41,206 nt of DNA from a virus: positions 1 to 41,206 of IMG/VR virus record IMGVR_UViG_3300046517_000953, one strand, 5' to 3'. Below the pieces are notes generated by a model that saw nothing but the letters and a program-made list of their open reading frames with translations, was not told the DNA's origin and searched no databases. The position numbers and the translations under genes are program-made. Shown piece by piece: positions 3,621 through 24,724 of this stretch; position 1 is the first letter of the stretch; each line of letters begins with the position of its first letter.

Positions 3621-3895
3621 TATTTCTTGTCCTTATCCTTGTCCTTGTAGCCGCCGCCGGGGAGTTTCGGCTCGTCCATGTCGGTGTCGGGCATCACATG
3701 GATACGCAATTTTACGCCCGGGCCCTTCGGCGGCGACTTCGGCAGGCCGAACTGGCTTGGTTGCTGCATGCCCTTCTGCATCTTCTTGGTCGTCGTGTAG
3801 CCGGGCGAGCCCGTGGCGTCGGCGATCGCGCTGGGCCTCTGGGCCCTGTTGTACTCTGCGGCGATCTGGGGAGGAACGTCTGCGGTGGTTTTCAT
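3620..3895 (-). CDS. Small virion-associated protein, unknown function (91 aa)
   Basis: ATG at 3895 overlaps the end of the 571-residue gene (stop near 3892) by 4 bases, and its TAA overlaps the next ATG by one base, so the reading frame fits the operon exactly. The N-terminus starts MKTTADVPPQIAAEYNRAQR; the middle is Gly/Pro/Lys-rich and the C-terminus is a run of Lys-Asp pairs (YKDKDKDKK). It looks largely disordered, has no signal or membrane segment, and is probably a minor structural or assembly protein. I do not recognise a family. Confidence 0.75.
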   Translation of the reverse strand: MKTTADVPPQIAAEYNRAQRPSAIADATGSPGYTTTKKMQKGMQQPSQFGLPKSPPKGPGVKLRIHVMPDTDMDEPKLPGGGYKDKDKDKK

Positions 3896-5607: not shown

Positions 5608-7028
5608 TACTGTGCTGTCCCTGTTCGTCCATCAGGTAGTTTGAACTTGGTGTTAGGCGGCAGTTTCATGGCCTCGGCTTCGGATGCGACGGCCTTCACG
5701 TCTCCGGTGCTGCTGGCCTGCTTGCTCGCCCCCAGTTGCGCGTCGATGGCGGCGGGATCGCCGCGAAGCTGCTTCAGTGCGTTGGCGTGCGTGCCCTTGT
5801 CGACTTCCGCAGCGGCGATCAGCCGGTCGAGCTGGGCCTTGCGATGCTCGGGCGTAGAGCTTGGGTTATTCAGCACCTCGATGAACTTCTTCATTTCGAA
5901 ATCGGTGGATTGCCCCTTGAGTGTCTGGGACATTTCCTTGATCGCGTTCTCGTTGATGATCGAGTTGAAGTCGTTGGTCCGCTGCGCCTTTTCTTTGGCT
6001 TCTTTGCTGACCATCCCGCCGATAACCGGCACGTCCGCAGCGCCGAGGGTAGCCCCGGTCTTGGCCCCGGCCCAAGGCCCGACATTGATGCCACCGGGGT
6101 GAGCGAGAATGGCCTTGGCCTCGTTGAGCTTGTCGAGCGACTGCGCGTGCGCGCGATACGTCGTCGCGGCATTGGTCTGGGCCGTGACTTGTGCAGGGCT
6201 CGGCGCGGTCAGCTTCGATGTGGCTTCAGCCCCGACTTCTGGCGGCACGATACCCGCCTTCACGTCCGCCGAGACGGCACCGACGTCGCTCTTGGGCTGG
6301 GTGGCCTTGAAGGCGTTGTTGGCGGCGTCGCGCGCCAGCTCGTGCTTCTGCTGGGCCTCGGCAAGCTTCGCCTGCGCGTCGATCTTCTGTTGCGTGGTGC
6401 CGTCCTGATTGGCGCGGTCCAGCGCCGCCTGCGCACCCTTGAACTCGCGCTCTGCGGCTGCGAGATCGGCATGGGCGCGTTGGGCTTGGGTCGCCAGATC
6501 GTACTGGCTCTGGCGGGTAGCGGCCCCCTCGCTTCGGGTAACGTCGTGGCCTTCGCGGGCGGTCGTCGCCTGAAGCTGCTGGCCTTCGCGCGTAACGGCC
6601 TGACCTCCCCGCGCGGTTTCCGCCCCGACGTCCTGTCCGCGCGACGTCGTTGCATTCGTCGCCGCGTTCCGGCGGGTCTCCGCCCATTGCGAGAGCAGGG
6701 ATTTATACAGGTCGGGATCAATCGCAGCAGCGGCTGGCGGAGGCGGCCCGTTCAACGGGTCGTAGCCCGTCATCGCCTTCGACAAGGTATCGCGCTGCGC
6801 GGCAATAGCGGCATCGGTGCGGTTTTGCCGAAACGCATCGGCGGCGACGTTGGCGACTTGGGCGATGCCCTGAATGGGGGTCTGGGTATTCTCGGGCTTG
6901 AACATGCCCGCTTCCTGCGTGGCTTGTTGCGCCAGCATGTCGGCCTGCCGCTTCTCAAGCGCCTTGATCGTCAACGCCTTGAGCGGATCGCTGTAGCCGG
7001 ACGTGGTCGTCGATGCGAAGATCGCCAT
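5607..7028 (-). CDS. Putative internal virion protein with long coiled coil (473 aa)
   Basis: I choose ATG 7028 (MAIFASTTTSGYSDPLKALT), 2 bases after the TAA of the upstream gene, because an AGAAGG-like ribosome site precedes it; an in-frame upstream extension would run inside the previous gene. Residues about 130-270 are highly charged and helical, with Arg-Glu/Gly periodicity followed by a heptad-like stretch (AAEREFKGAQAALDRANQ), indicating a coiled coil. The C-terminal region contains LPPNTKFKLPDGRTG. It has no enzymatic motif. Position between a transglycosylase-like protein and the 571-residue protein suggests an ejection-apparatus component. Its ATG-proximal and stop overlaps with neighbours indicate coupled translation. 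Confidence 0.72.
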   Translation of the reverse strand: MAIFASTTTSGYSDPLKALTIKALEKRQADMLAQQATQEAGMFKPENTQTPIQGIAQVANVAADAFRQNRTDAAIAAQRDTLSKAMTGYDPLNGPPPPAAAAIDPDLYKSLLSQWAETRRNAATNATTSRGQDVGAETARGGQAVTREGQQLQATTAREGHDVTRSEGAATRQSQYDLATQAQRAHADLAAAEREFKGAQAALDRANQDGTTQQKIDAQAKLAEAQQKHELARDAANNAFKATQPKSDVGAVSADVKAGIVPPEVGAEATSKLTAPSPAQVTAQTNAATTYRAHAQSLDKLNEAKAILAHPGGINVGPWAGAKTGATLGAADVPVIGGMVSKEAKEKAQRTNDFNSIINENAIKEMSQTLKGQSTDFEMKKFIEVLNNPSSTPEHRKAQLDRLIAAAEVDKGTHANALKQLRGDPAAIDAQLGASKQASSTGDVKAVASEAEAMKLPPNTKFKLPDGRTGTAQ

Positions 7029-7029
7029 C

Positions 7030-7866
7030 TTAGTACAACCTTCTGCTATTGAGCCGCTGCATGGCGAGGGCGAGCTGTTGCCGTTGCGCCTCGGCCAGTC
7101 GTGCATCCGTCATCGGAATAGGCCCCGGAGCCGTCGGCGTCGACGGCGCAGCGATGTTGGCAGGCCCCGAGGCCCGGGCCGCGTTCTTCGCCACCGGGCC
7201 CTCGGCATAGAGTTTTCCGATGTCGCTTACCGCGTCGCCTGCGAGATCGCCGTAGTCCTTCTTCTTTTTGTCTTTGGTCTTTTCGTCCGACGTCGTGCTG
7301 TCGTCGCCGGGCGTGGTGGTGCTGGCGGTGTCGACGCGGGCATCGCTCGGAGGCGCGGTGCCGCTCTCGGTATTGGCCGCCGGATCGAGCATCGGGCTTG
7401 CCGTGGCGATGGCGGTGGAGGCGGGGCTGGTGCCGATGCCTTCAAACTGACCGATGCCGGTATTCTTCGCGCCATTCCACGGGCCCCAGCCGCCTTGCGC
7501 CGCGCGTTTCAATGCGAAGTCGATCGTCGCCCGCTCGTTTGCAGGGTCGGACGGATCGAGCCCGGTCGCTTTCTGGAACTCGTTGCCGAGACCGCCGCCC
7601 GTGTAAAGCTGGAACGCGCCGAAGCTGGGTTCCTCCGTGCCGTCCTTTCGGATCACCCCGGACTTGAACGAGGCCAGACCTTCAGACTTCGCCACTTTTA
7701 ATGCGGTAACGGGGTCGATCCCGTATTTCTTGGCGGTTTCGAGGATGTACGGCGTCAGCCCGCGCGGATCTCCCGGCGTCGGCAACGGCGCAGGCACCGT
7801 CTGCGTCACCGTCGGAGCCTTCAGCTCGGTCCGCTTCTTGTTGCCGGGCAGGTCGTACTGGGCCAC
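7030..7866 (-). CDS. Virion-associated lysozyme-like lytic transglycosylase (278 aa)
   Basis: Residues about 35-140 show a lysozyme-like (SLT/goose-type) fold signature: a helix ending AKSEGLASFKSG with candidate catalytic Glu62, then SFGAFQLYTGGG (81-92) which matches the family's G-x-x-Q motif, and WGPWNGAKNTGIG (127-139). The likely reaction is local cleavage of peptidoglycan glycan strands so that the genome can cross the cell wall. The remaining C-terminal half is low-complexity (Ser/Thr/Asp then Lys-rich) with a helical end (ARLAEAQRQQLALAMQRLN) probably for virion incorporation. Neighbouring internal virion genes support a role in DNA ejection and not in lysis, which the GH24 enzyme at 38248 would perform. 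Confidence 0.8.
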   Translation of the reverse strand: MAQYDLPGNKKRTELKAPTVTQTVPAPLPTPGDPRGLTPYILETAKKYGIDPVTALKVAKSEGLASFKSGVIRKDGTEEPSFGAFQLYTGGGLGNEFQKATGLDPSDPANERATIDFALKRAAQGGWGPWNGAKNTGIGQFEGIGTSPASTAIATASPMLDPAANTESGTAPPSDARVDTASTTTPGDDSTTSDEKTKDKKKKDYGDLAGDAVSDIGKLYAEGPVAKNAARASGPANIAAPSTPTAPGPIPMTDARLAEAQRQQLALAMQRLNSRRLY

Positions 7867-11834: not shown

Positions 11835-12386
11835 TTATGCAGCCGCCTTCAGCCGGAGGGTTTCGATCAGGGCTTTCTGCGCGGAGATCGTCGTCAGGGC
11901 CTCGGTGAACTGCTCCTTGACCGCGTCGAGCTGGCCCTGCAAGTCGGTAACGATTTCCTCGTACTGCCCGGCCTTGCCGTGCAGTTCCATCATCTTGACG
12001 GCGCGGTCGGCAATCTCGATGACGTCGGGCGGCATGGTCTTGAGGGCTTCGGCACGCCGCTTCTTGCTGATCTGCTGCGCCAACTGCTCGACGGTGTGGA
12101 TATCGCGCACGGCGCACATCTGAAAAATATGAGGAGGACAAGCAGGCCACAGAGCCAGCGGATAACCGACGATGGTTTTGCGGGCCGCGCAGGTCTTTTG
12201 GTAGAGTTCATAGGGCCCGGGGTGGTCGTCGATATCGACTTCATCGGCCACGCGGTCGATCCCGAGATAAGGCGGGCGGTCCATTCGCACGCGAACGATC
12301 TCGCGGTACAGCGGCATGCCGTCGGGGCCGTTGCCGTCGCGCTCCCAGCCGGAATAGAATTTCACTAAAGTCGGTGTATCGCTCAT
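11835..12386 (-). CDS. Hypothetical protein with C-terminal coiled coil, downstream of capsid (183 aa)
   Basis: Begins MSDTPTLVKFYSGWERDGNG and contains RVRMDRPPYLGIDRVADEVD and a Trp/Cys-containing region (YPLALWPACPPHIFQMCAVRD). From about residue 125 it is helical with heptad features (YEEIVTDLQGQLDAVKEQFT). A GAGGAG ribosome site precedes the ATG. It is the first gene after the hairpin terminator behind the capsid gene, so its expression may be set below that of capsid. It may be a head-completion or capsid-associated protein; I do not recognise a family. Confidence 0.72.
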   Translation of the reverse strand: MSDTPTLVKFYSGWERDGNGPDGMPLYREIVRVRMDRPPYLGIDRVADEVDIDDHPGPYELYQKTCAARKTIVGYPLALWPACPPHIFQMCAVRDIHTVEQLAQQISKKRRAEALKTMPPDVIEIADRAVKMMELHGKAGQYEEIVTDLQGQLDAVKEQFTEALTTISAQKALIETLRLKAAA

Positions 12387-12410
12387 GGTCGCTCCTCGGG
12401 GAGCGCGGGG

Positions 12411-12450
12411 AAAAACGGCGGCCGTGCTCCCCGCAAGTCGGCCGCCGTTT
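12411..12450 (-). terminator. Intrinsic terminator behind the major capsid gene
   Basis: A perfect 12-bp inverted repeat (12413-12424 with 12439-12450) and a 14-base loop lie just after the capsid stop codon. On the minus strand the stem is followed by five U residues (the A-run at 12411-12415). It would partly terminate late transcription, giving more capsid than tail mRNA. Confidence 0.82.
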
Positions 12451-12460
12451 AACGATGCAG

Positions 12461-13414
12461 TTAGGTACCCGTTGCCGTGAGCCTGCCCTGCATCGAGCGG
12501 TTGGACAGCGTCAGCGCACCCATGAACGCCATGTGGCGGGTGACGGCATCCATGTCGGGCGATTGATCGGGCAGATCGAGGGCTTCGAAGTTACGGCCCG
12601 AGTAGATCTCGAACTTCATGTACTTGGTGTTCAGATAGTAGGCCCCGGTGATGCCGGTGGCCGCGCCGTCGAACACCAAAGGCGCGCTCTTGTACTTCAG
12701 CGTCTCGAAGCCGAGAGATCCCAGTTTGGCGTCGGCATAGCGTTGGTTCTCCTGAAGGCCGCTTTCATAGGTCGAATAGATTTCGCCATCGGCGACGATC
12801 AGGTCAGGCTTCTCGGCACCACGAATGAGTTTCATCCACAGCGCGTTCATGCCTGCCTTCAGCGCCGGATATTGTAGACCTGTTGCACGCGCTACAGCTT
12901 GGAACTGGTTCTTCCAGAAGATCCAAGTGCCCGCGTCGATGCCGCCGACGATGCCGAGGCCGTCAACAGTGACGAAGGCCTTGAGGCCCGCGAAGGATTT
13001 CGCAACGGTGCCATCGCCATAAACGGCTTTGGTGATGTTGTTCTTCATGGTGCTCTCGGCGTTGTCGAGCTTGCCCTCCAGAAGATTGAGGATGCGCTCC
13101 CGCGAGCGGTTCTTGGCCAGATCAGGGCCCGAGAGGGTCACGGAGGCCACGGCGTTCGCCGGGTCATAATGAGCCTCGGAGATTGTATCCTTGGTGGCTC
13201 GCGAGAGCAGTTCGGTTCCGAGGTACCACGCAAAGGTTTCCTCGGCGTAGGTCAGCGGGCAGGAAATCTGCTTGCCGCCTTCGATGACGCGGACGCGGTT
13301 GCCCTCGCGCAGAAGCGCGGTAACGGCGTTACTGTTGGAGACGTTATCGGCGAACTGCTTGTGGTAGTTGTTGATCGTGGTCGCGACGAGCATGGAGACT
13401 GTCGGGTCGGCCAT
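12461..13414 (-). CDS. Major capsid protein (317 aa)
   Basis: The N-terminus (MADPTVSMLVATTINNYHKQ, then FADNVSNSNAVTALLREGNR) is a recognised start of HK97-fold major capsid proteins of this podovirus-like group. The middle includes IEGGKQISCPLTYAEETFAW and ISEAHYDPANAVASVTLSGP, and the C-terminal third has the P-domain-like beta segments with PDQSPDMDAVTRHMAFMGAL. It is encoded directly after the scaffold gene, with an AGGAG ribosome site 8 bases from ATG, and is followed by a strong terminator, as expected for the most abundant virion protein. Length is normal for capsids lacking an N-terminal delta domain. I see no protease gene, consistent with a separate scaffold. Confidence 0.93.
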   Translation of the reverse strand: MADPTVSMLVATTINNYHKQFADNVSNSNAVTALLREGNRVRVIEGGKQISCPLTYAEETFAWYLGTELLSRATKDTISEAHYDPANAVASVTLSGPDLAKNRSRERILNLLEGKLDNAESTMKNNITKAVYGDGTVAKSFAGLKAFVTVDGLGIVGGIDAGTWIFWKNQFQAVARATGLQYPALKAGMNALWMKLIRGAEKPDLIVADGEIYSTYESGLQENQRYADAKLGSLGFETLKYKSAPLVFDGAATGITGAYYLNTKYMKFEIYSGRNFEALDLPDQSPDMDAVTRHMAFMGALTLSNRSMQGRLTATGT

Positions 13415-13431
13415 ATGGCACTCCTATGAGG

Positions 13432-14640
13432 TTAAAACCCGACCTCATCGGCAGACCGCTCGATCGCATCTCGCACGCTACCCTTCGAGGGCCCGTCCGC
13501 GCCGTTGGGCCTCGCGACGGGTGTGGTGACCCCCCGCGTGTTGCCCCGTTGTGCGATCCGGGCCTTGGCGAGGTCATTCTGCGACTGGCTGCGGAATTGC
13601 TCCGCCGCGACCAGTTGCTTCCTGACTTCCGGGTGAGCCCAGCAGGCGGTCTCGTAGGCCTCGGCCAGATTGCGGTTCGGATTGGCCTTGAACAAGTCGA
13701 TGATGAGCGGCAGCACGGCGTCGAAGTGCGGGCGCAAAGGGCGTCCGTCCTTCGACTTTTCGTCCGCGAAACCGTCGATCCCCGTCCTTGCATTCCTGAC
13801 GCCCCATTCAGCACGCGCTTGCTGCTCCGCCTGCTGTCTCTGCTGTAGCTCGCCACGGATGGCGTTGAGTTCGTTCGTCGTCTTGCCGAGGTGATCGGCG
13901 ATGTACTTGACTGCCGGGTCCTTGAGGTCCTCGTCCGAGAGGCCCATCGGGTTCGGCGGCGGCTGGTTCTGTAAGGCGGAAAATATGCGCGCTGGGTCCA
14001 GCCCCATGCGTTGCGTCAGGTTGACCAGCAGCTTGAAACGGTCCTGCTGGTCCGGCGAGGTGCCCATCTTGTGCCAAGTCGCCCACTCATGGATCGCTTG
14101 CACCGGATGGACGCCCGCCTGCTTCAGCGACGCCACGATCTGCGGGTCGTTGAATACTGGCGCAAGCGCCTGCGTGAACTGGACTGCTCCCGCACTCGCC
14201 TGAGATTTGCGCGTGAACTCGGCTTCCATTTCGCCGTGACGCTTCAGGAGGAAGGATTGCCCCTCCGCAGGAAGCTTGGCGAATGTCGCCTTATCTTCCG
14301 CGCTCCAGTGCTCCGGTACCTGATTGCTTCGCGCCGGTTGAACGGCGGCTGGATCAGCGGTCGGTGGCTTCTGGACTTCAATTCTTGGTTTCGGGGCTGG
14401 ATCGAGGGGTTCGATTGCTTCGCCCGGCTGGGGAGCCTCTGATTTGGCGACCCAACGCCCCGACTTATCGCGCGGACGGTCGTCGGATGCAAGGGGTTCT
14501 TCGGCAGCCCCTTCCGTCTCGGGCCCTGACGGGCCCTCCGGGGCTTCGGCACCGGCATCGGCTTCGAGATCGTCGTAAGCCTGCTCGGCAATGTCCCTAA
14601 GGCTCGGCGGTGCTTCGTTTTGCGGATTGTCGACGGGCAT
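13432..14640 (-). CDS. Scaffolding protein (402 aa)
   Basis: ATG 14640 (MPVDNPQNEAPPSLRDIAEQ) is preceded by CAGGAG at ideal spacing; an upstream in-frame extension lacks support. The N-terminal 150 residues are acidic and Pro/Glu/Ala-rich (disordered), the centre has NQVPEHWSAEDKATFAKLPA and EGQSFLLKRHGEMEAEFTRK, a block I associate with phage scaffold-like proteins next to capsid genes, and the C-terminal half is helical and charged. The end (SVRDAIERSADEVGF) may be the capsid-binding tail. Position directly upstream of capsid and acidic, helical composition make scaffold the best call. Its 5' end overlaps the previous gene by 44 bases. Confidence 0.86.
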   Translation of the reverse strand: MPVDNPQNEAPPSLRDIAEQAYDDLEADAGAEAPEGPSGPETEGAAEEPLASDDRPRDKSGRWVAKSEAPQPGEAIEPLDPAPKPRIEVQKPPTADPAAVQPARSNQVPEHWSAEDKATFAKLPAEGQSFLLKRHGEMEAEFTRKSQASAGAVQFTQALAPVFNDPQIVASLKQAGVHPVQAIHEWATWHKMGTSPDQQDRFKLLVNLTQRMGLDPARIFSALQNQPPPNPMGLSDEDLKDPAVKYIADHLGKTTNELNAIRGELQQRQQAEQQARAEWGVRNARTGIDGFADEKSKDGRPLRPHFDAVLPLIIDLFKANPNRNLAEAYETACWAHPEVRKQLVAAEQFRSQSQNDLAKARIAQRGNTRGVTTPVARPNGADGPSKGSVRDAIERSADEVGF

Positions 14641-14872
14641 CTTTGGCTCTCCTGAAGGACGCGGGGGTGTCCCGGGGGTCGTAGCTCCCCGAGGCGTGAA
14701 GGTCGCGGTCGCGCTGGCGATGCGACGAAATCGTGCGGTCGTCGACCGGAGAAGCATAACTCTCGAACGACTGCACGGCGGGGGCCGGAAGATCGGAAGC
14801 CGCATGACCGGAGTTCGCCGGTCTATACTTTTTCTCGATCAACCGACCGCCGTAGAGAACATAGACGGGCAT
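14597..14872 (-). CDS. Small conserved head-operon protein (91 aa)
   Basis: Two starts are possible, GTG 14875 or ATG 14872; I prefer ATG. The protein begins MPVYVLYGGRLIEKKYRP, resembling a family of small phage proteins (YVL-x-x-GR-L-x-x-K) encoded between portal and scaffold. The central part has SYASPVDDRTISSHRQRDRD and GSYDPRDTP, and the C-terminus is basic and Ser/Arg-rich. It overlaps the scaffold start by 44 bases in another frame, unusually long for this operon, so the scaffold ribosome site lies inside this gene. Function is unknown; a head-assembly or accessory role is inferred only from conservation of position. Confidence 0.78.
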   Translation of the reverse strand: MPVYVLYGGRLIEKKYRPANSGHAASDLPAPAVQSFESYASPVDDRTISSHRQRDRDLHASGSYDPRDTPASFRRAKDARRQSAKRSTAEP

Positions 14873-14876
14873 CACG

Positions 14877-15149
14877 CTAGTCCTCGCCGTGGAGAACAGC
14901 CGCCCCCGCCCACATCATGGTTTCTTCGAGCGCGACGAAGGCCTGCGCCATGCGGCGGTTGCCGGGACGCGAGCCTTCAGTCGTGCCGTCCAGCTCATGG
15001 AGGACGAGGCGGAAGGCTTTCTCGGCCTCCTTGAGCTTGGAAAGACGCGCGGTGATAACCGGCGGCAGCAGGTGGCCGGTCCACGGGTTCACGGGGACGC
15101 CGAGGCCCGGCAGGTGCATCTGGTCGTTGGGTCGAAGGCCCGTGCTCAT
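14877..15149 (-). CDS. Acb2/Tad1-like small helical protein, putative cyclic-nucleotide sponge (90 aa)
   Basis: After a 30-residue loop-like N-terminus, residues 34-54 form one helix (ARLSKLKEAEKAFRLVLHEL) and residues 64-86 a second (NRRMAQAFVALEETMMWAGA), separated by a short Gly/Thr/Ser turn. The second helix carries the R-x-x-A-x-A-x-x-x-L-E-E-x-M-M-W-A pattern that I associate with the Acb2/Tad1 helical-hairpin proteins of phages, which bind cyclic oligonucleotide or cADPR-type signals and blunt CBASS or Thoeris defence. It is co-encoded with head genes and its start overlaps the TIG-domain gene stop by ATGA. The family resemblance is by eye; a generic helical head protein remains possible. 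Confidence 0.62.
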   Translation of the reverse strand: MSTGLRPNDQMHLPGLGVPVNPWTGHLLPPVITARLSKLKEAEKAFRLVLHELDGTTEGSRPGNRRMAQAFVALEETMMWAGAAVLHGED

Positions 15150-15745
15150 GTGTACACGAAGTTGTCGGCGGCCCCGGTGATCGCGCTGGAGCCTTTGGGT
15201 GTCGTGACGCGCACGTCGACGGTGCCGACGGCATGCGCGGGCGTGGTTGCGGTGATGGTGTTGGTGTTCACGACGACGACGGCGGTGGCAGCGGTACCGC
15301 CGACGGTGACGCCGGTAGCTCCGGTGAAGCCCGCACCGGAGATCGTGATGGCGGTGCCGCCCGCCGCGAGGCCCGTGCCGGGACTGACATTGGTCACGAT
15401 CGGCGGCGAGGTGGCGTCAGGATAGGGCGCGGAGGGCGCAACAGGGCCCGTGCGCCCCGCTTGGCCCGCATAGGCACCTGTATCCAAACCAAGATCATCG
15501 ACGATCTGGAGCGCGGGGACCATCGCGGCAGCCTTGGCGGATTGCGTCTTGGGCGCGTAGGGCCCGACGGTGACGCCGGAGACGTCCGTCAACGAACTGG
15601 TCGCGGTGGCGATATCTTCCTCGTTGCCGGTGGCTCCGCCCTGCCAGTCCGCGCCTGACGTGTAGCGCGGCTTGGCTTCGTTGGTGGCGTTGGCGCGCGC
15701 CAGCATCGCGTTGGTGATCGGCAGCGGATAACGAACCATCGCCAT
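15146..15745 (-). CDS. Virion protein with C-terminal IPT/TIG Ig-like domain (199 aa)
   Basis: ATG 15745 (MAMVRYPLPITNAMLARANA) overlaps the stop of the 168-residue gene; a GTG one codon upstream is less likely. The first 110 residues are a helical/loop region. Residues about 113-198 show an IPT/TIG immunoglobulin-like fold: PIVTNVSPGTGLAAGGTAIT, ISGAGFTGATGVTVGGTAAT, then NTITATTPAHAVGTVDVRVT, the classic SP-x-x-G-P/A-x-x-G-G-T and G-x-G-F motifs. Ig-like domains on phage heads bind carbohydrates weakly or decorate the capsid. Position between portal-side and scaffold genes suggests capsid decoration. Its stop overlaps the Acb2-like gene start. Confidence 0.82.
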   Translation of the reverse strand: MAMVRYPLPITNAMLARANATNEAKPRYTSGADWQGGATGNEEDIATATSSLTDVSGVTVGPYAPKTQSAKAAAMVPALQIVDDLGLDTGAYAGQAGRTGPVAPSAPYPDATSPPIVTNVSPGTGLAAGGTAITISGAGFTGATGVTVGGTAATAVVVVNTNTITATTPAHAVGTVDVRVTTPKGSSAITGAADNFVYT

Positions 15746-16251
15746 CACGCACCGCCTTTCGGCGGGATCGGATTGCCGAAGGCGTCGGTGTTCGGACGGG
15801 CCGGGCCCTTGCTCTCGCCGGGGGTCACATGGGGCTTGTCGGAAACGCCCTTGATCCCCTGCGAGCGGGTAATGGTTTCTTCCGGCGGCGGCGGATTACC
15901 CTCCGGGTAAGGCGTGCGGGGCCCGATGCCCTGCTCCTCGATGGTCTGGACCGGGCCCGGCGAGACTTCGGCGAGGCTGACGGGGCCGACGCCCGCGCCC
16001 GGCTCTCCGGCAGCGGCGGATTTTTCCTGCTCGGTCATCATGTCGCCGGGCGGGATGGAAAAGGTCGTGGGCGCGTTCGGATCGGGCGAAAGCGTGCGAT
16101 TAGCCGGGTGATTGGGGTCCTGATCGCGGTTGGCGGGCGGCGTGGCTTTCTTGTTGGCCGCGTCGGGGCTGCGCTCGGTCCGGTGTTCTTCGCGGACGCG
16201 TTCGTCACGGCCACGTTCGGCATCGTCACGTTCGGTAGTTGGGTTAGCCAT
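15745..16251 (-). CDS. Hydrophilic, disordered head-operon protein (168 aa)
   Basis: Begins MANPTTERDDAERGRDERVR and is rich in Asp, Glu, Arg, Pro and Asn with almost no hydrophobic core; it looks intrinsically disordered throughout. A GAGGGAG ribosome site precedes ATG. It lies immediately after the portal gene and its TGA overlaps the start of the TIG-domain gene. I do not recognise a family. It may be an assembly helper or a linker that recruits the TIG-domain protein to the head, but only position supports this. Confidence 0.68.
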   Translation of the reverse strand: MANPTTERDDAERGRDERVREEHRTERSPDAANKKATPPANRDQDPNHPANRTLSPDPNAPTTFSIPPGDMMTEQEKSAAAGEPGAGVGPVSLAEVSPGPVQTIEEQGIGPRTPYPEGNPPPPEETITRSQGIKGVSDKPHVTPGESKGPARPNTDAFGNPIPPKGGA

Positions 16252-16269
16252 GACGGTTTTCTCCCTCGG

Positions 16270-18744
16270 TTACATTGGTGGAGGTGGACCGCCCATGCCG
16301 GGCGGCGGTGGCGACTGGGGTTTCGGCATCGGCGGCGGGCCCTTGCCGTTCTGGCCCCGCGTCGGCGCTGGCTGGGGCCCGGGCGGGCCCTGACCCGGCG
16401 GCGGAGGCCCGGGAGGCGGCGGTGGGCGCATCATCGCGCCCGTGGGATCGACGCGCATGTAAGCGCCGAGCATTTCCTGATAGCCGTTGACCATGTCGAT
16501 CACGCCCCGGGAATGCCGGACCGGGTGGAGCAGCATCTTTATCATTTCGAGCGTCATGTTGAGGATCATCGGCGGCGGCAGGATCCCGGTCATCATCAGG
16601 CCCTGAGCGGCCTGCATGGTGCCGCCGATCACCTGCATGATCTGGGCGTTGGCTTCTTTCTCGGTGGCTTCGTCGGCCTGCACGGTGCTGTCGGTCTCGA
16701 TGTCGATCGAGCACATCCGCGCGAAGTCGTTGCGCAGGATCTCCATCACCGCAGGCGTGACGTTCTCGCCGGTCATTCTCGTCAAGGTTTCGGCATCGAA
16801 GTTGCGCGCGATGATATCGCTCTTGAGCCGCATCAGGTCGCGGACGAAGTTGGCGACCGAGCCTTGCACGCCCGCCATTCGACCCGAGCCGATGGTGCCC
16901 TTCATGCGTTGCGCGGTGGCGGTTTCGTAAGGGTTGGACGCGCCTCTGACGATATCGCTGATGCCGATGATTTCGTAGATCGCGTTCTTTTGTTGATCCC
17001 TCGACATGTAGAGTTCTTTGAGCGCGTTGACCCACTCAAGTATCGGCACGAGCCAGATGTGATTTTGCAATCCGCCGGACATAAGATCGACGCCGTCAAC
17101 CGGCAGCAGCTTTCCGTCGTCGGCGGTGAGTAGGTTTGCAATATCCTTGTTTGCAGAGTTGTATCCGCCGCGCACCTTGATCTTGGCGGTGAGATCGGAA
17201 ATGCGACGCGAAGTATCGTCCAGATCGGCGGCGAGGTGCGCGTAGAGGTCATAGAACGCCTTCGGGATCATGGTCTCCGTGGTGACCACGGCGTAAATCG
17301 GTTTCGGTATGGGGTAGAAGCCCTCCAAGCCAAGCACGTCCGGATCGACGCGCAGCGCGCAGCCGCCGCCCTCGCGGATGATCCAGAGGACCTCGCGCGT
17401 ACTCCTGTTCCAGATCTCCCAGACCATGGCTTTCCGAACAACGCTGTCCAGCTTGCCCGAGGCCCGGGTCGAGGGCCCGCCCCCTACGGGGGATTTTGCT
17501 GCGCTTTCTTCGGTCCATTTCAGCAGCTCCGAGAGCTTGTTGGCCTTGATGTACTCCTGAAGCTTGGGGCTGTCGCCGAACTCGGAGGTGAGGGCCTTCT
17601 CGGAGAAAAGATGCCGGAACGCGATCCACTCGACGTCGCCGTGGTTGCGAACGGGGTCTAAGAGGATGTCCTCCCAGAATACATATTCGTCGTCGACGGT
17701 CTCCCAGATCTTGGCGTCCTTCAGCGTCGGCTCGCCCGTCATCGGGTTCTGCAAGGGCCCGCCCATCACCGGATCTTCAACCGGGATCTGCTTCAGGATC
17801 GGCTTCCAGCGCACGCGGCAGATGCCCCGGCCGGGCAGCAGCATGTCCCTGACGGCGGCTTTGACCGCTTCGTGCGAGGCCTCGTCGGCCACCACGATCT
17901 CCAGCGCCTTCTCCATCACGGCAGCGGCCGTATCAATGTCCTGCTGCGGCGGCATGCCCGGGGGCATCGCAGCGGGTTGCGGCACGGTCTGGGGCCCGAC
18001 GGGCGGCTGCGGCGGCGGCATGCCACCGACGGGAGGCGCGCCGCCGCCGGGCGGCATCCCGTCGAGCTGTGGCGGGCCAGAACCGAATTGGGGCGGGCCC
18101 CCGCCAACGGGCGAAGCAGGCGGAGGCCCTGCGCCCGGCGGAGGGGGGCCAACGCCGGGAGGTTGCGGGGGAACGGGCGCTCCGGGTGGAGCCATTGCCG
18201 AGGGAGGGGCTCCGGGCCCCAACGGCGGCGCAGGTTCACCCGGAGGACCCATCCCCGGAGAAGGTGGACCGTTCATCCCCGGAGGCGGTTGCGGCGAGCC
18301 GATCGGCGGCAGGCCCGGAGGGCCCGGCGGAGGGCCCATCGGCGGCATCGGCATCGGCGGCATGGCCGATTTCTTCACGAAGCGGGATCTGACAACGGGA
18401 TCAGGGGGTTTCGAATAGGCGGCAGGCAGCATCACTTCGGTATTGGCGTACAAGATATTGAAGGTCGAGGACTGGTTGAGCCGCGTGGTGGAGGACGAGA
18501 CCCTGCCCGCCTTGGGGCGGGTGATCGGAATGTCACCGCGATAGATCTGGACGATTTCGCGGCCTCGGGTGCGCCAGTCTTTCTCTGCGCGTTCCGCATC
18601 CGCAAGGGCTTTTTCCCAAAAAGAAGTATCGACTTCTGCGGTGTCGCTGGCCGCGATATCCGGCTTGTCCGGGTTCTGGGCCTCGGGGCTCTCGGGGGTC
18701 ACCCGGGGAAGGTCATCGCCTTTGGAGTAGCTGGTCTCTGCCAT
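16270..18744 (-). CDS. Portal protein with large proline-rich insertion (824 aa)
   Basis: Portal ring subunit through which DNA is packaged and ejected. Residues 40-125 (SFWEKALADAERAEKDWRTR, YRGDIPI, STFNILYANTEVMLPAAYSK) and about 272-770 (EKALEIVVADEASHEAVKAA, LLPGRGICRVRW, ISDIVRGASNPYETATAQRM) form a portal fold typical of large podoviral portals. Between them, residues about 127-267 are an almost pure Pro/Gly/Ala/Met stretch (for example MPPMPMPPMGPPPGPPGLPP), and the C-terminal 40 residues are again Pro-rich. The insertion splits the conserved N-terminal portal domain. Start ATG 18744 has a GAGGG site; a stronger AGGAGG lies further upstream beside a very short overlapping ORF. Gene order TerS-TerL-portal is canonical. 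Confidence 0.9.
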   Translation of the reverse strand: MAETSYSKGDDLPRVTPESPEAQNPDKPDIAASDTAEVDTSFWEKALADAERAEKDWRTRGREIVQIYRGDIPITRPKAGRVSSSTTRLNQSSTFNILYANTEVMLPAAYSKPPDPVVRSRFVKKSAMPPMPMPPMGPPPGPPGLPPIGSPQPPPGMNGPPSPGMGPPGEPAPPLGPGAPPSAMAPPGAPVPPQPPGVGPPPPGAGPPPASPVGGGPPQFGSGPPQLDGMPPGGGAPPVGGMPPPQPPVGPQTVPQPAAMPPGMPPQQDIDTAAAVMEKALEIVVADEASHEAVKAAVRDMLLPGRGICRVRWKPILKQIPVEDPVMGGPLQNPMTGEPTLKDAKIWETVDDEYVFWEDILLDPVRNHGDVEWIAFRHLFSEKALTSEFGDSPKLQEYIKANKLSELLKWTEESAAKSPVGGGPSTRASGKLDSVVRKAMVWEIWNRSTREVLWIIREGGGCALRVDPDVLGLEGFYPIPKPIYAVVTTETMIPKAFYDLYAHLAADLDDTSRRISDLTAKIKVRGGYNSANKDIANLLTADDGKLLPVDGVDLMSGGLQNHIWLVPILEWVNALKELYMSRDQQKNAIYEIIGISDIVRGASNPYETATAQRMKGTIGSGRMAGVQGSVANFVRDLMRLKSDIIARNFDAETLTRMTGENVTPAVMEILRNDFARMCSIDIETDSTVQADEATEKEANAQIMQVIGGTMQAAQGLMMTGILPPPMILNMTLEMIKMLLHPVRHSRGVIDMVNGYQEMLGAYMRVDPTGAMMRPPPPPGPPPPGQGPPGPQPAPTRGQNGKGPPPMPKPQSPPPPGMGGPPPPM

Positions 18745-18776
18745 ATTTTGGGGCCCTCGAAGCCCTCATACACCTC

Positions 18777-20186
18777 CTATTGTAACGCGTCGAGCTTAAA
18801 GGCGTTCTTGACCAGAAGGGGATTGAGATCCTCGTCGGTTTCGACGCGGGCCCCGAACGGTCTGCTCATGCAGGCGTAGCGGATATCGTCGACGGCGTGG
18901 TCCTCGCCCTCGGTGTCGAGATCCTCGGGGCGGTTTTCATCGTGCTGCTGCATGGGAAGGGTTCTGATGCTGTCCCTGCAATGGTCGACGAAGAAGATCA
19001 TGGGGTCGCCTTCTTCGTCGCCGCGCAAGCGCCATCGGACCTGATCCCAACCACCCATCCGTTTCGGCGTAGAGACACGCGAGTTATCGGCACGCCGGAA
19101 GTACACGCCATGACGTGCAAACGTCTCACCAATGCTCGGACCTGACACGACTTGAAAGGCGGAGGGGTCGAGGATGCCGTAGGCGATCGGTTCGCGAAAT
19201 CCTCGACCATCTGTTTCTCGACGAACAACTTCCTTGGCGACGGCATCGGCGGGCAGCTTGAGGCCTTTGTTGGGGGCGGAGGAACCGTACCACTCACGAT
19301 AACGGATGATTGCATTCTTGGGAATGCGTCGCTTATCATGGACGAAATCATCCTGCACGACGATCCACCATCCAAGGCTGAAGGGCGAGGCCGATCCCCA
19401 GTCCATGGAGCGGAAGCGCGTCCAGTGCAGCGGCATTCGCGGAGGCGTAATCACATGACGACCGGGATCGAACTCCGGGAAGAACGCGCCCTCGATCACG
19501 TTCCAGTCGCCTTCCAGCCATGCGCGAACGAGTGCAGGGCTTCCCGAAGCGCGAAGGCGGTTGATGTAGTTCGGGTCGTTGTTGAGCAGGCTGGGATTGT
19601 CTTGGATCTTGGCGGGGATGAAGATGCGGATCAGGCCCGTCTCGTTGTCCTTGACTGGCTTATACGCGCCGTTGTCGATCACCCAGTTCTTGACCCAATG
19701 ATGGCCCGGGCCGCCGGGGTTGCAGGTGGCGCGAAACTGACAGCGGGCCCCTGACGTGGTCCTTAAAGTGGCGAACAACCTGAAGATACCCGCAGAACTG
19801 GCGTACTGTGTCAGCTCCTCCACATAGACGCGCGTCAGCGACCAGCCCTGATAGTTCATCGCATCGGCATCGCTCTCCAGATAGGCCATATGAAAAACGG
19901 CACCATTGCGGAAACGAAACTGCTTCTCCTTGTCTTTCCACTCGGCGGCATCCCCGTACATCTGACGGGCAACATCTATGGTGTCTTTTAGATCCTCGCG
20001 AGAGCGGCGCAGCATCAAGCCCTTTGCGGCGGGCCCCCAATCCTCCGCATGGCACCAAAATTCGCCAAGCGAAGCGAAAGATTTCCCGCCGCCCCGGGCA
20101 CCGCCGTAAACCACAATATCGGCAGGGCACGTCAGGAAATGGTGCTGGGGCCCGGGCTGGGGCTTGAACCCCGTGACGATCTTCAT
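18777..20186 (-). CDS. terL: Terminase large subunit (469 aa)
   Basis: ATP-driven DNA packaging motor and headful/cos nuclease. The Walker A-type motif GGARGGGKS is at residues 28-36, a Walker B (RVYVEELTQY) at about 119-128, and the motor coupling region ATCNPGGPGHHWVKNW follows. The C-terminal RNase H-like nuclease shows MDWGSASPFSLGWW, LDPSAF and a terminal D-x-x-D (EGDHAVDD-like) acidic set. Length is typical for Terminase_6-type large subunits. ATG 20186 overlaps the TerS stop as ATGA. It binds the portal during packaging. The packaging mode (headful versus cos) cannot be told from this gene alone. Confidence 0.93.
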   Translation of the reverse strand: MKIVTGFKPQPGPQHHFLTCPADIVVYGGARGGGKSFASLGEFWCHAEDWGPAAKGLMLRRSREDLKDTIDVARQMYGDAAEWKDKEKQFRFRNGAVFHMAYLESDADAMNYQGWSLTRVYVEELTQYASSAGIFRLFATLRTTSGARCQFRATCNPGGPGHHWVKNWVIDNGAYKPVKDNETGLIRIFIPAKIQDNPSLLNNDPNYINRLRASGSPALVRAWLEGDWNVIEGAFFPEFDPGRHVITPPRMPLHWTRFRSMDWGSASPFSLGWWIVVQDDFVHDKRRIPKNAIIRYREWYGSSAPNKGLKLPADAVAKEVVRRETDGRGFREPIAYGILDPSAFQVVSGPSIGETFARHGVYFRRADNSRVSTPKRMGGWDQVRWRLRGDEEGDPMIFFVDHCRDSIRTLPMQQHDENRPEDLDTEGEDHAVDDIRYACMSRPFGARVETDEDLNPLLVKNAFKLDALQ

Positions 20187-21049
20187 CCGAATAATTCTTC
20201 AAAGCTAGGGATTTGATTTTCCCCCGTATTGGTACTGGTACCCTCATCCTCGATCAACCCCGTTTTCTTGGAGGGGGTGGGGCCCGGGCCCCCGGCGGGT
20301 AATAAAGTTGCGCGTGCGCGCTCGATAGGGGTCCCGGTTACCGTCGGCGATGGGGCCCCGTTTTCGGATCGCCCCGCCACCGGGCCTTCGAGCCCTAACC
20401 AATTGATTTCATTGAGCTTTTCAACCTCCAAGGGCCCGGGCCCTGAGGGCTCGGCGGTATCTGGGTGTGGAATTGTGGGTTCGAGCCCTAATAGACCGGC
20501 GGGCGCGTCGGAAACGCGCAGGAATGAGGCCTCTTGGACAGGGCTCAAGGGCCCGTCCGGGCCCGGGCCCGGAAGGGCTGGCAGGGCTTCAACCCATGCG
20601 CTCAGGGCCTGCTCCGAAGGCGCATCCGGATCACGCGAGGGCCTGCGGATAACTTCGAGCGTGCTCTTGTCGGTAACGTGGCCGTAAAGCCTCGCCAGAC
20701 TGAAGGCGGCATTATGCGCGGCGCTATATTCACCCTCGCTGTGAGCCCCGGCAAAAACCCTTTGAAGCATGTCGGTCACCTGCGGCAAGGTGACAACGCC
20801 GGTTGACCGTCTGGCTTCAAGTATCGCCCTCGCCCTCTCTTGAACCCTTGGCAGATTGAAAAGGTTTGCAGCCGCGTCTTTTGCCTTGCTCGAAAAACCA
20901 GCCCTCGCGAACGCGATACCCAAAGCAAGACCGTCGCAGACCATGCGAACAAAGACTTCCTCTTTGGCGTCTCGCAATTCAACGCCATACAAGACAACGC
21001 CGCGCTGCGTTCCGTTCCGCATGCCTCTCGCGATTAAACCTCTCGCCAT
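20183..21049 (-). CDS. terS: Terminase small subunit (288 aa)
   Basis: DNA-recognition subunit of the packaging motor. Residues about 45-140 are helical with an HTH-like start (FARAGFSSKAKDAAANLFNL) and LPQVTDMLQRVFAGAHSEGE, followed by AAHNAAFSLARLYGHVTDKS, a pattern I associate with TerS of rhizobial and related phages. From residue about 150 it is Pro/Gly-rich and probably disordered before a short acidic C-terminal peptide (NQIPSFEELFG), which may bind TerL. It is the first gene of the late operon, with its stop overlapping the TerL start. An AGGGA ribosome site precedes ATG. Confidence 0.84.
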   Translation of the reverse strand: MARGLIARGMRNGTQRGVVLYGVELRDAKEEVFVRMVCDGLALGIAFARAGFSSKAKDAAANLFNLPRVQERARAILEARRSTGVVTLPQVTDMLQRVFAGAHSEGEYSAAHNAAFSLARLYGHVTDKSTLEVIRRPSRDPDAPSEQALSAWVEALPALPGPGPDGPLSPVQEASFLRVSDAPAGLLGLEPTIPHPDTAEPSGPGPLEVEKLNEINWLGLEGPVAGRSENGAPSPTVTGTPIERARATLLPAGGPGPTPSKKTGLIEDEGTSTNTGENQIPSFEELFG

Positions 21050-21298: not shown

Positions 21299-22774
21299 AT
21301 GCTTACCCAAAATACCCAAATTCCGACGGCCTGCCGTGGTCAGGTGCGCTCAATCGTCAAGGCGCATAGTGACTGGCCTGCTTTCCTAGTCGAAAAAGGC
21401 CTGATTAGCGCCAGCGCAAAGAACGCGGACCTGATCGAGTTTGCTTTACGGCACGTCGACTTGATAACCAAAATCAACGCTATCCTATCCCTGAGCCCGC
21501 AAGGTGCGCAAGCGGATGCGCCCGAAACCATGATGGAAGACGATGACACCATGATTGACGAAGCACCCGCAGCACCCGCGCCCAATGCCGGTTTCGAGTT
21601 GGACAATATCTTGGGCACGGTCGATCAACTGCTTTCGCCGCTGGTACGCAAGGAAATCGCGGGCGCGCTCGCGCCTGTCATTGCCGCAGCCAATCGAGGG
21701 CCAATCGAAGTCGAGCGCATTGTGGAAGTCGAGCGCATTGTGGAAGTTGCGCCCGGCGAGGGCCCGCGCATTGCCGCAACTCCAAAGGCGCGCCGTGACA
21801 AGCGCGTACCCTTTCGCACGCTGTTTCCAACGCGTGCGAAGGACGCTTATTTGGATGCGCCTTTGACGCTGTGGACCGGCACGCCTTCGCCTGCGGCCGA
21901 TCCGTTTTACGTTGTGGACCGGGCGCAGATGGCACTTTTGATGACCGCGTTTGAGCGCGGCACCAACGTGTGGCTGGCGGGCCCGGCGGGCACGGGCAAG
22001 AGCACCATGCCGGAACAAGCCGCAGCTATATTGGGCAGGCCTTTCACCAAAATTGGCATGACCTACCAGACCGACGTTGAAACGCTTGTGGGCGGGCCCG
22101 GGATGCGCAACGGCGCAACGCTTTGGGAAGATGGCTCATTGGTGAAAGCCATGCGCCAGCCCGGCATGGTCATCTTGATTGATGAACTCACGATCGCGCC
22201 CGCAGGCGTGCAGGCCATCGTGCAGCTAGTCGCGGATGACCATCGCTCTCTGACCCTGCCAACAGGTGAAGTTGTGAAAGCTGCGGATGGCGCGGTGTTC
22301 GTGGTCGCCGATAACACCTGTGGATCAGGTGACGAAGGCGGGCTCTATGTCGGCACCAACGTATCGAACGCAGCCCTTGTGACGCGGTTCAAGCGGATGA
22401 TTATCGTGGACTACCTTTCGGCGCAGAAAGAAGCGGAAGCCCTCGCCAATCACACGGCATGCCCATTGCCTGCGGCAAAGCACTTGGCCGATTTTGTCGC
22501 GCAATGCCGACGTCAGCCGACGCTTGCAGGCGTGGTGATCTCGCTGCGGCAAATGGTTGGCTTCGTCCAATGCGTTCAAGACGGTTTTTCCGCAAAAGAC
22601 GCTTTCGAAACCACCATTTCAAGCCGCATGCCAGCCACTGAAAAGGCCACGATTGAAGGCCTTTGCAATCTGGCATGGTCAGAGGCTTTTGAGGCTCTGG
22701 TACATAACAAGCCCGCGCCTGCCACGCCTTCTAACAGCGCAGCGGCGAACGCCTTTGCCGACACCCAATATTGA
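21299..22774 (+). CDS. MoxR/CobS-type AAA+ ATPase (491 aa)
   Basis: AAA+ ATPase of the MoxR/CobS kind, expected to remodel a client or insert a metal together with a VWA partner. Residues 226-237 hold the Walker A (LAGPAGTGKSTM), 291-296 the Walker B (VILIDE), 335-340 sensor 1 (VVADNT), and 362-366 a likely arginine finger (TRFKR). The N-terminal 190 residues include a small helical domain (DWPAFLVEKGLISASAKNAD), an acidic linker and IEVERIVEVERIVEV, encoded by an exact 18-bp tandem duplication (21707-21742). A TAAGGA site precedes ATG. It is followed on the same strand by a CobT-like VWA protein, the standard MoxR partner. Codon choice looks different from the late genes, hinting at separate acquisition. 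Confidence 0.88.
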   Translation: MLTQNTQIPTACRGQVRSIVKAHSDWPAFLVEKGLISASAKNADLIEFALRHVDLITKINAILSLSPQGAQADAPETMMEDDDTMIDEAPAAPAPNAGFELDNILGTVDQLLSPLVRKEIAGALAPVIAAANRGPIEVERIVEVERIVEVAPGEGPRIAATPKARRDKRVPFRTLFPTRAKDAYLDAPLTLWTGTPSPAADPFYVVDRAQMALLMTAFERGTNVWLAGPAGTGKSTMPEQAAAILGRPFTKIGMTYQTDVETLVGGPGMRNGATLWEDGSLVKAMRQPGMVILIDELTIAPAGVQAIVQLVADDHRSLTLPTGEVVKAADGAVFVVADNTCGSGDEGGLYVGTNVSNAALVTRFKRMIIVDYLSAQKEAEALANHTACPLPAAKHLADFVAQCRRQPTLAGVVISLRQMVGFVQCVQDGFSAKDAFETTISSRMPATEKATIEGLCNLAWSEAFEALVHNKPAPATPSNSAAANAFADTQY

Positions 22775-22807: not shown

Positions 22808-22852
22808 GAGGGCTCGTTTTAACGCAAAAGCGCGTTGAAACGAGCCCTTTTT
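22803..22852 (+). terminator. Attenuator-like terminator between AAA+ and VWA genes
   Basis: GGGCTCGTTT (22810-22819) pairs with AAACGAGCCC (22838-22847), enclosing a nested AACGC/GCGTT hairpin, followed by five T residues (22848-22852): an intrinsic terminator. The upstream AAAACGAG (22803-22810) can instead pair with CTCGTTTT (22813-22820), which would disrupt the terminator stem. The two foldings are mutually exclusive, as in attenuators. The VWA start is 28 bases downstream. Confidence 0.7.
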
Positions 22853-22879
22853 CTTACTTCTAACCAGAAAGATCAAACA

Positions 22880-24724
22880 ATGTCATATACTTACCCAGAA
22901 GCCCTCTCCGCGCTGGAAAGCATCGCAAACGATTATATCAAGATATTGCGCCCGAATGAGAATGCGCCCGTGCGTCTCAAATGTGACCCCTATGCACAGA
23001 CTGCGTCCGTGACTTGGGAAGCGTGGCAAATCGAAGTGACCATGCCCGTGCGCCCGGCGACGTCGCAGATGTTGCAGGCCGAATTTGAGGACTGGATTGC
23101 CTACATGCTGCACGAGTTAGGCCACCCGACGCACACGAACAAGAGCGCATGGCACCATGCCGTGCGCCTAGGCGTATCGCGCATGGTCAACGCGTTGGAA
23201 GACGTACGGATGGAAAAGGCGCTTATTGCTTCGGGTATCGTGCCCAATGCGCGCCGCGTGCTGTCGCGCCTGATATCGCGCAAAGTTGTGGAAGCCCGCG
23301 CCAATGCATGGAAGCCCAATGCGCGCTCGGAATTTGGCTGGACCGTTTGCGTGCTTGGGCGCGCAGCCAATGGCTATGACATTGACGCTTCGGACCTGTC
23401 ATGGATCAAGGCGCAAATCAAACCGGGCTCAACGGTCGCAACCGTTTTGGGTTGGGCAATGCCAGCCCTTGCGGCATGTCAATCAACATCGGATTGCGTG
23501 ACATTGGCTGAAAAGATCATGGCAGCCCTCAAGACGCCGCAAACCGGCCAGCCCGGCGAAGGCGAAAGCCAGCCCGGCGAAGGCGAAGGCCAGCCCGGCG
23601 AGCAGGACGAAGGCGAGGGCGAGGGCGAAGGCGAGGGCAAGGGCGAGAGCGAGGGCGAGGGCGAGGGTAAGCAGGGAAAGCCCTCAGGTGAGGCTGACGA
23701 GGGCAAGGGCGAGGGCGAGGGCGAGGGCGAGGGAAAAGGCGAGGGCGAGGGCGAACGCGATGGGGAAGCTTCTAATGAGGCTGGAGACACTAACGCCGGA
23801 AAAGGCGGCAAGGGCCACGGCACGGGCGCGACCGACGATGACGAAACACCCATCACGGATGAAAACGATTTGACGGAACATTCGCTCGCCCCTGAGGGCG
23901 AAACCATGGAAGGCGCGGGCGCGAATACCGAAAGGTCCGTGATTGATATCCTGCGTTCCCGCGTCATCACGGACAGCCCTCGCAATGGCCCTAACCCCCG
24001 CATGGGTGTGGCTGGCACGCGTTTGAGGGATTGCGCCGCGAAAGCGTCTAAACAGCGCGCTGTTTTGGCCCGCGCATTGCGGTCCAACGAAACCAACATT
24101 CGGGAAGGCGGCCGCAGGGCCGGGAGACTAGATCGCGGCGCATTGGCGCGGGCCAGCGCGGGCGCGACCAACATTTTTGAACGCCGCACCATTTCCAAGG
24201 GTTTTGACACGGATGTTTGCATATTGCTTGACGCTTCGGGCTCAATGGCGGGCGCGAACATGGCGAGCGCCCTTGAGGTCGGCCTAGTGGTGTCGCAGGC
24301 AGCGGCAAGCGTTGGCGCATCCTGCACGGTCGAAGTGTTCAACTCGCAGGGTTACATCCGAGCAGGCGGGTTGGCTTCGAAGCGCACGCCTAACCCTGCG
24401 GAATTTGGCGCATTGGTCAGCGCAGCCACAGGCGGCACGCCGTTGAGCGCGCATATGGCCCGCGCTGCGGTAAACCAAGCCAAGCGCGCGCCGCAAAAAC
24501 GCCGCGTGCTTTTCGTGGTGACCGATGGCGGCTGCGACTATGGCCCGCAAACAGTCAAGCGCATGGCGAATTATCTGGAACGGTCTTTGGGCACGGTCAT
24601 GGCACACGTTTCGATCGCCACGCCTTTGCAGGGCTCGTTTCGGGCAGAAGTCTGCGTACCCTGCGGCGCAGCCCTTTCGGAAATCGGCCTAGAGCACTTC
24701 GTCAAAGTGCTTCAAGCCCTCTGA
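22880..24724 (+). CDS. CobT-like VWA protein with HExxH zincin motif (614 aa)
   Basis: Partner of the upstream AAA+ ATPase. I choose ATG 22880 (MSYTYPEALSALESIANDYI); an in-frame start at 22835 would lie in the terminator. Domains: residues 65-112 contain YMLHELGHPTHTN with HELGH at 78-82 and, 24 residues later, NALEDVRME, giving a zincin-like HExxH...E set; 222-320 is a Gly-Glu low-complexity linker made of GEGEGEG repeats; 441-614 is a VWA domain with a complete MIDAS (DASGS 451-455, T520, D549 in VVTDGG). Such MoxR-VWA pairs act as chaperone or activation complexes. A metalloprotease activity is plausible but unproved; CobT cobaltochelatase subunits share the general layout. A strong terminator follows the stop. 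Confidence 0.85.
   Translation: MSYTYPEALSALESIANDYIKILRPNENAPVRLKCDPYAQTASVTWEAWQIEVTMPVRPATSQMLQAEFEDWIAYMLHELGHPTHTNKSAWHHAVRLGVSRMVNALEDVRMEKALIASGIVPNARRVLSRLISRKVVEARANAWKPNARSEFGWTVCVLGRAANGYDIDASDLSWIKAQIKPGSTVATVLGWAMPALAACQSTSDCVTLAEKIMAALKTPQTGQPGEGESQPGEGEGQPGEQDEGEGEGEGEGKGESEGEGEGKQGKPSGEADEGKGEGEGEGEGKGEGEGERDGEASNEAGDTNAGKGGKGHGTGATDDDETPITDENDLTEHSLAPEGETMEGAGANTERSVIDILRSRVITDSPRNGPNPRMGVAGTRLRDCAAKASKQRAVLARALRSNETNIREGGRRAGRLDRGALARASAGATNIFERRTISKGFDTDVCILLDASGSMAGANMASALEVGLVVSQAAASVGASCTVEVFNSQGYIRAGGLASKRTPNPAEFGALVSAATGGTPLSAHMARAAVNQAKRAPQKRRVLFVVTDGGCDYGPQTVKRMANYLERSLGTVMAHVSIATPLQGSFRAEVCVPCGAALSEIGLEHFVKVLQAL

Follow-up and report, generated by a model that had tools for sequence, protein, structure and literature searches.

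The viral sequence analysed here is IMG/VR record IMGVR_UViG_3300046517_000953, taken in full from position 1 to position 41,206; this stretch of 41,206 bases is referred to as the window. Its minus strand carries a block of head genes that runs, in strand order, from terminase through portal, a low-complexity open reading frame (ORF), a TIG-domain gene, the hairpin gene studied here, a small gene and a gene in scaffold position to the major capsid gene:

18777-20186, minus strand: terminase large subunit (annotation)
16270-18744, minus strand: portal protein (phrog_12082, PHROGs), upper edge of the portal-to-scaffold interval
15745-16251, minus strand: low-complexity ORF of 168 amino acids, between the portal and TIG genes
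15146-15748, minus strand: TIG gene of 200 amino acids with a C-terminal IPT/TIG domain (PF01833, Pfam), directly upstream of the hairpin gene
14877-15149, minus strand: hairpin gene, PF24729 (Acb2_Tad1_hairpin), 90 amino acids, ATG start (ORF, Pfam, relatives, dN/dS)
14597-14875, minus strand: small conserved gene of 92 amino acids, GTG start, directly downstream of the hairpin gene and kept in relatives; lower edge of the slot, as we call the position held by the hairpin gene
13432-14640, minus strand: scaffold-position protein of 402 amino acids, directly upstream of the major capsid gene (named by position only)
12461-13414, minus strand: major capsid protein (phrog_9953, PHROGs)

The location among head genes given in a preliminary description, which had been made from the sequence alone, holds: the hairpin gene lies in the portal-to-scaffold interval, is tightly packed there and is conserved in relatives. 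The stop codon of the TIG gene overlaps the hairpin start (ATGA), and the 92-amino-acid ORF starts one base past the hairpin stop. Given this spacing, the hairpin gene is likely to be translationally coupled to its neighbours. When positions 12300-20300 were scanned for promoters and terminators, the coding strand showed no promoter-like site, and matches were no more frequent than in shuffled sequences. By position, the 92-amino-acid gene resembles p46 of Myxococcus phage Mx8. The TIG/IPT protein (15146-15748, minus strand) is also conserved in relatives and could be an Ig-like capsid decoration. Elsewhere in the window, on the strand that does not carry the head genes, an AAA_5 ATPase gene (21299-22774, plus strand; phrog_249, annotated as porphyrin biosynthesis) is followed by a gene for a 629-amino-acid protein (22835-24724, plus strand; phrog_1576), and we take this pair to be a CobS/CobT-like arrangement.

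Coding status and relatives

The ORF at 14877-15149 is a real, conserved coding gene. Loci with relatives of its protein numbered 20 in a first scan of IMG/VR (one of them, L020, spanning just 25 residues) and 26 in a second, and the 22 aligned relatives are 58-88% identical to the window protein. Across 105 pairs drawn from 15 sequences, the median dN/dS (Nei-Gojobori-type) is 0.30 and the highest value 0.64, and the frame is thus under purifying selection. Searches of a phage collection with tblastn returned no relative of the window protein or of the L089 or L101 proteins, and two contig scans of a bacterial genome collection yielded no confirmed relative. The motif first remarked on in this gene, R-x-x-A-x-A-x-x-x-LEE-x-MMWA-x-A, is matched exactly at residues 65-83 (R-R-M-A-Q-A-F-V-A-L-E-E-T-M-M-W-A-G-A).

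Family assignment

The protein had been described as a helical hairpin of the Acb2/Tad1 type, and this homology is borne out by Pfam and by profile-profile comparison with controls; the ranking of predicted folds, given below, agrees. The match to PF24729, the Acb2/Tad1 hairpin family, passes the gathering cut-off (E 1.3e-7; 32.2 bits against a cut-off of 27), and the family was found in none of 14 control genomes. The Tad2-like family PF11195 is absent among the Pfam matches of the window protein at E up to 10, an NCBIfam search gave no match, and the one PHROGs match was a weak one to an unnamed family (phrog_1454, E 3.5e-4). With phmmer, the single window protein gave chance matches alone against PDB sequences.

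Profile comparisons used the close window subfamily (A1), a diverse set of 24 members that includes L103 and the canonical-type L123 (A3), 40 slot sequences without the divergent L103 and the canonical-type L123 (A5, the source of the residue counts below), and ten Acb2-type sequences led by T4 Vs.4 (A6). Within A3, PF24729 is matched with an E-value of 1 or lower by 20 of the 24 members and not by the other four. Aligned with hhalign, A5 and A6 match with a probability of 94.6% (P 7e-8); as controls, the reversed alignment reached 0.1% and the highest-scoring of 60 column permutations 4.4%. When the reference was reduced to T4 Acb2 plus four relatives, A5 matched with P 5e-7, and the window subfamily taken by itself gave P 1e-6 (hhalign). 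The distant GPRD-type half of the slot family, taken alone, matches T4 Acb2 weakly (P 0.007); it matches the window subfamily with P 1.5e-15. Against PDB sequences, A3 ranks T4 Vs.4 first (E 0.005), followed by Tad1 (0.06) and 'Acb2 homolog 43' (0.11), and A5 again places Vs.4 first (E 0.037); with A1 the top hit is the designed helical protein 9k7t (E 0.004), followed by Vs.4 (E 1.6).

Comparison with individual systems helps to place the protein. T4 Vs.4/Acb2 (PDB 7uq2, 8h2j) has two long helices in a chain of similar size (88 versus 90 amino acids) and shares a helix-2 pattern around A-x-T-x-L-x-E-A-x-M-W-A-x-x-A-V. In alignment, however, the window protein is without an equivalent of Tyr8 and has a longer N-terminal arm and a shorter inter-helix linker, and its subfamily keeps His51, Gly55 and Met67 instead. 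The genes also differ in setting: that of T4 is found in the vs/regB region, away from head genes, whereas the window hairpin lies among them. In Tad1 (PDB 7uav, 8kbg), the helix-2 stretch FSSRENACALTHVEEALMW resembles F.SRRM.IAATHLE.ALM of the slot proteins, but the Tad1 chains in PDB are longer (123-138 amino acids versus 90) and have an N-terminal antiparallel beta-sheet domain, which the window protein, with 29 residues before helix 1, does not. Short FNPS-type proteins (from Flavobacterium phage FCL-2, L123 and the second copies in L034 and L075) belong to the same Pfam family as the window hairpin and, like the slot hairpin, occur in related head operons, once in the slot itself (L123). 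They differ in having an N-terminal F-N-P-S motif and a length of mostly about 75 amino acids, and in lacking the H..(D/E)G...RRM signature of the slot family.

On sequence grounds, the window protein is a member of the PF24729 superfamily that is neither Acb2 nor Tad1 proper, and it belongs to a separate subfamily with conserved residues of its own. To our knowledge, the members of PF24729 that have been studied experimentally, Acb2 and Tad1, are all sponges, and we know of no sponge protein homologous to the window hairpin that is part of the virion.

Predicted fold

15063-15149, minus strand: N-terminal arm (residues 1-29), which carries the motif RPNDQMHLPGLGVPVNPWTG of the subfamily and is modelled as largely non-helical at low confidence
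14988-15062, minus strand: helix 1, residues 30-54, ending LHELD (AlphaFold model, slot alignment)
14889-14957, minus strand: helix 2, residues 65-87, RRMAQAFVALEETMMWAGAAVLH (AlphaFold model, slot alignment)

The two helices of the preliminary description reappear in the AlphaFold2 models of the protein, which place them at residues 30-54 and 65-87 with either a 23- or a 40-sequence alignment. For most of both helices, block-mean pLDDT lies at 91-96; it drops to 80 for the final ten residues. The predicted arrangement is that of two antiparallel helices, as PF24729 requires, and neither model contains a strand of at least three residues. The arm (residues 1-29) is mostly non-helical, with block-mean pLDDT of 46-79, and its model was not improved by the deeper alignment A5 used for the second model. 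Residues 7-12 are helical in the second model alone, within a stretch of low pLDDT (compare the short N-terminal helix of Acb2). The N-terminal loop had been thought to add 30 residues; a low-confidence, non-helical arm of about that length is indeed predicted, but its excess over the matching segment of T4 Acb2 is about 17 residues by profile alignment, or about 12 by hand, and not 30.

Foldseek searches of PDB rank T4 Vs.4 chains first to third (E 0.6-1.2), and Vs.4 is first again with the second model (E 2.4). Among viral models, named Acb2/Tad1 hairpin proteins make up seven of the top ten and 11 of the 50 rows listed. The structural match that the preliminary description called for is present as a ranking that favours T4 Vs.4, but no single fold match is significant, the best E among all the viral rows listed being 0.29. 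Z-scores from VIA-align for Vs.4 and Acb2 (6.3-6.5) are level with those of unrelated helical hairpins. Because hairpins of two helices are common, matches of this kind are too weak to stand alone. In other words, the ranking of the predicted fold agrees with Acb2/Tad1 homology and would not suffice without the profile evidence.

Conservation of the slot in relatives

Relatives of the capsid protein were collected as the best 80 of 150 (80-99% identical) and, in a wider set, as 80 kept of at least 574. We screened 93 loci for the slot, namely the window, the 85 loci L052-L136 and seven further ones, and 51 passed a spanning test, defined by the small downstream gene plus an upstream TIG or portal match. 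A hairpin gene occupies the slot at 47 of these 51 loci, window included, a recovery that is partly by construction because many of the recovered hairpins had gone into the profiles themselves, and that comes from loci that are not independent (L060-L063 have identical hairpin proteins, as do L111 and L114; L079 and L080 look alike; L109, L110 and L116 form one cluster). The slot profile detected 46 of the 47. The remaining one, in L123, was detected by the Acb2-type profile; it represents another hairpin lineage, of the canonical short type, and is 50% identical to Flavobacterium phage proteins. Three loci that failed the spanning test (L089, L094 and L120) do carry the hairpin.

The slot hairpin is missing in the cluster formed by L109, L110 and L116, and in L125, though the capsid proteins of these loci are still 80% identical. 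Two loci outside the 51, L124 and L126, have the downstream gene and sequence upstream of it, and no hairpin profile match. A reading by eye of the portal-to-scaffold ORFs in L109 revealed no recognisable substitute sponge.

Pfam alone was applied to two groups of 50 records, chosen for length enough to cover the slot. PF24729 is matched at E up to 0.01 in 40 of the 50 close records (27 above the cut-off) and in three of the 50 others, which comprise 46 IMG/VR records and four named phages; none of these three is above the cut-off, and all have capsid proteins 72-78% identical. The slot profile adds L128 and L135 in this second group. In 40 distant IMG/VR loci, whose capsid proteins are 36-41% identical, and in eight loci from the phage collection (L044-L051), the stretches available contain no match to either hairpin profile. 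A Pfam scan of Mx8 p46, a BUCT555 protein and eight other interval proteins from phage records found PF24729 in none. The lack of the hairpin gene in some relatives suggests that the capsid can do without it.

The main alternative to a sponge is a protein of head morphogenesis or packaging that has the hairpin fold and is retained because capsid assembly needs it. Such a role would fit a syntenic gene found at most spanning loci, packed tightly between the TIG-domain gene and a small conserved gene and constrained to the degree that its dN/dS indicates. Counter to this, four spanning loci have dispensed with the gene while their capsid proteins remain similar, L124 and L126 give no hairpin profile match either, nor do the available stretches of the distant loci, and the homology points to sponge proteins, which we know only as non-virion proteins. 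The losses, and the presence of another hairpin lineage in the slot of L123, weaken the head-assembly role, and we consider it unlikely.

Other sponge-type genes occur in related head operons. L034 (629-856) and L075 (3989-4261) have a second PF24729 hairpin, of the FNPS type, between terminase and portal, and both keep the slot hairpin. Ruegeria phage 45A6 (L048) has the order terminase, portal, capsid protein, with a capsid protein 34% identical, and matches to PF11195 (Tad2-like), a Pfam family unrelated to PF24729, occupy the portal-to-scaffold interval of this related operon at 5787-6230 and 7262-7660. The strong one (E 5e-26) is directly after the portal gene; the weaker, below the Pfam cut-off, is further along. 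In L161, a distant capsid relative, a Tad2-like gene (3677-3973) lies downstream of terminase with one 78-amino-acid ORF between them. Because Tad2-like genes were found in two of the 50 records searched, which were other than the 50 close ones, we treat their co-occurrence as a lead rather than a pattern.

Candidate pocket residues

Our comparison with the Acb2 pocket rests on three T4 residues quoted in passages of PMC12657218 and PMC12657230, according to which Tyr8 is required for dinucleotide binding, Thr68Met lowers affinity, and Phe82Cys, from an escaper, weakens binding. The place of Tyr8 is taken by Gly25 in the profile alignment (Gly in 22 of 23 close relatives) and by Val20 in the hand alignment (23 of 23). 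Residues 1-29 of the window protein contain no tyrosine, and the dinucleotide-stacking tyrosine of Acb2 is without a counterpart. Thr68 aligns with Val72 of the window protein, a position that is Thr in 35 of 40 slot proteins and Gln, Asp or Arg in four other T4-like Acb2 proteins; Phe82 aligns with Leu86.

The slot proteins have a conserved set of their own. Within A5, His51, Gly55 and Met67 are each present in 40 of 40 sequences, as is Asp or Glu at position 54, and Arg65 is present in 36. When the 24 members of A3 are considered, L103 and L123 included, Gly55 alone is invariant and His51 and Met67 are kept in at least 90%. His51, Asp/Glu54, Gly55, Arg65 and Met67, together with the VPV(D/N)..TG arm, may form the pocket. 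Given a separate subfamily with its own conserved candidates, the ligand may differ from those of known sponges. The preliminary description had held that absence of the conserved ligand residues would refute its reading, and for Acb2 proper this is partly the case, because the Acb2 tyrosine and the Tad1 beta domain are absent and other residues are conserved.

The same set, combined with the lack of the Acb2 tyrosine, could also reflect binding of a nucleotide or nucleic acid in a different role, such as late-gene regulation, or of a host nucleotide unrelated to defence; as far as we know, most PF24729 proteins lack experimental study. Arguing against this, Acb2 and Tad1, the members that we know to have been studied, are sponges, and a relative has Tad2-like genes in its portal-to-scaffold interval, which points to counter-defence. 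We find a purpose outside defence more doubtful still than a role in head assembly.

Discussion

Hairpin sponges are already known; what appears to be new here is a subfamily fixed in a capsid operon and bearing its own signature. A limited literature search found no published description of such a subfamily. Published annotations of such hairpins include gp57 of Microbacterium phage Statler, a phage with its protease at gp24 and its tail chaperones at gp35-36, and genes 101 and 102 of two mycobacteriophages.

We favour, with moderate confidence, the interpretation that the window gene encodes a late-expressed, sponge-like counter-defence protein. Acb2 is a compact homohexamer with pockets for dinucleotides and trinucleotides, and Tad1 binds gcADPR. 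By homology, the 90-amino-acid protein would oligomerise, and would bind and hold a nucleotide-type alarm molecule of a host CBASS- or Thoeris-like system. With the alarm molecule sequestered, the suicide effector would stay off. The sponge would be expressed late as part of the capsid message, probably with translational coupling to its neighbours, and would appear alongside the head proteins, which are reported triggers of such systems. According to two reviews, ThsB1, a sensor of Thoeris, recognises the major head protein of the phage (PMC12043709), and phages deleted for acb2 escaped CBASS with a capsid mutation (PMC10419184). The capsid-linked and presumably late position of the gene agrees with these two statements. 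A degenerate or inactive sponge, with the fold retained and binding lost, might be read from Val72 where most slot proteins have Thr, but purifying selection and the functional-looking conservation of His51, Gly55 and Arg65 make this very improbable.

Beyond the sponge role of the single gene, it is possible, if speculative, that the head operon of this clade is a standing place for signal sponges that are co-translated with the capsid proteins that trigger CBASS or Thoeris. Because of this co-translation, trigger and antidote would rise together. The occupant would mostly be the new subfamily, with a different pocket (His51-Gly55-Arg65-Met67) and perhaps a ligand unlike that of any known sponge.

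If true, a capsid-adjacent sponge subfamily would link counter-defence to the late phase of expression in which capsid-sensing systems fire, and the slot would be a map position at which to look for further sponges. Conserved residues that are distinct from those studied in Acb2 would make the search for the ligand directly testable.
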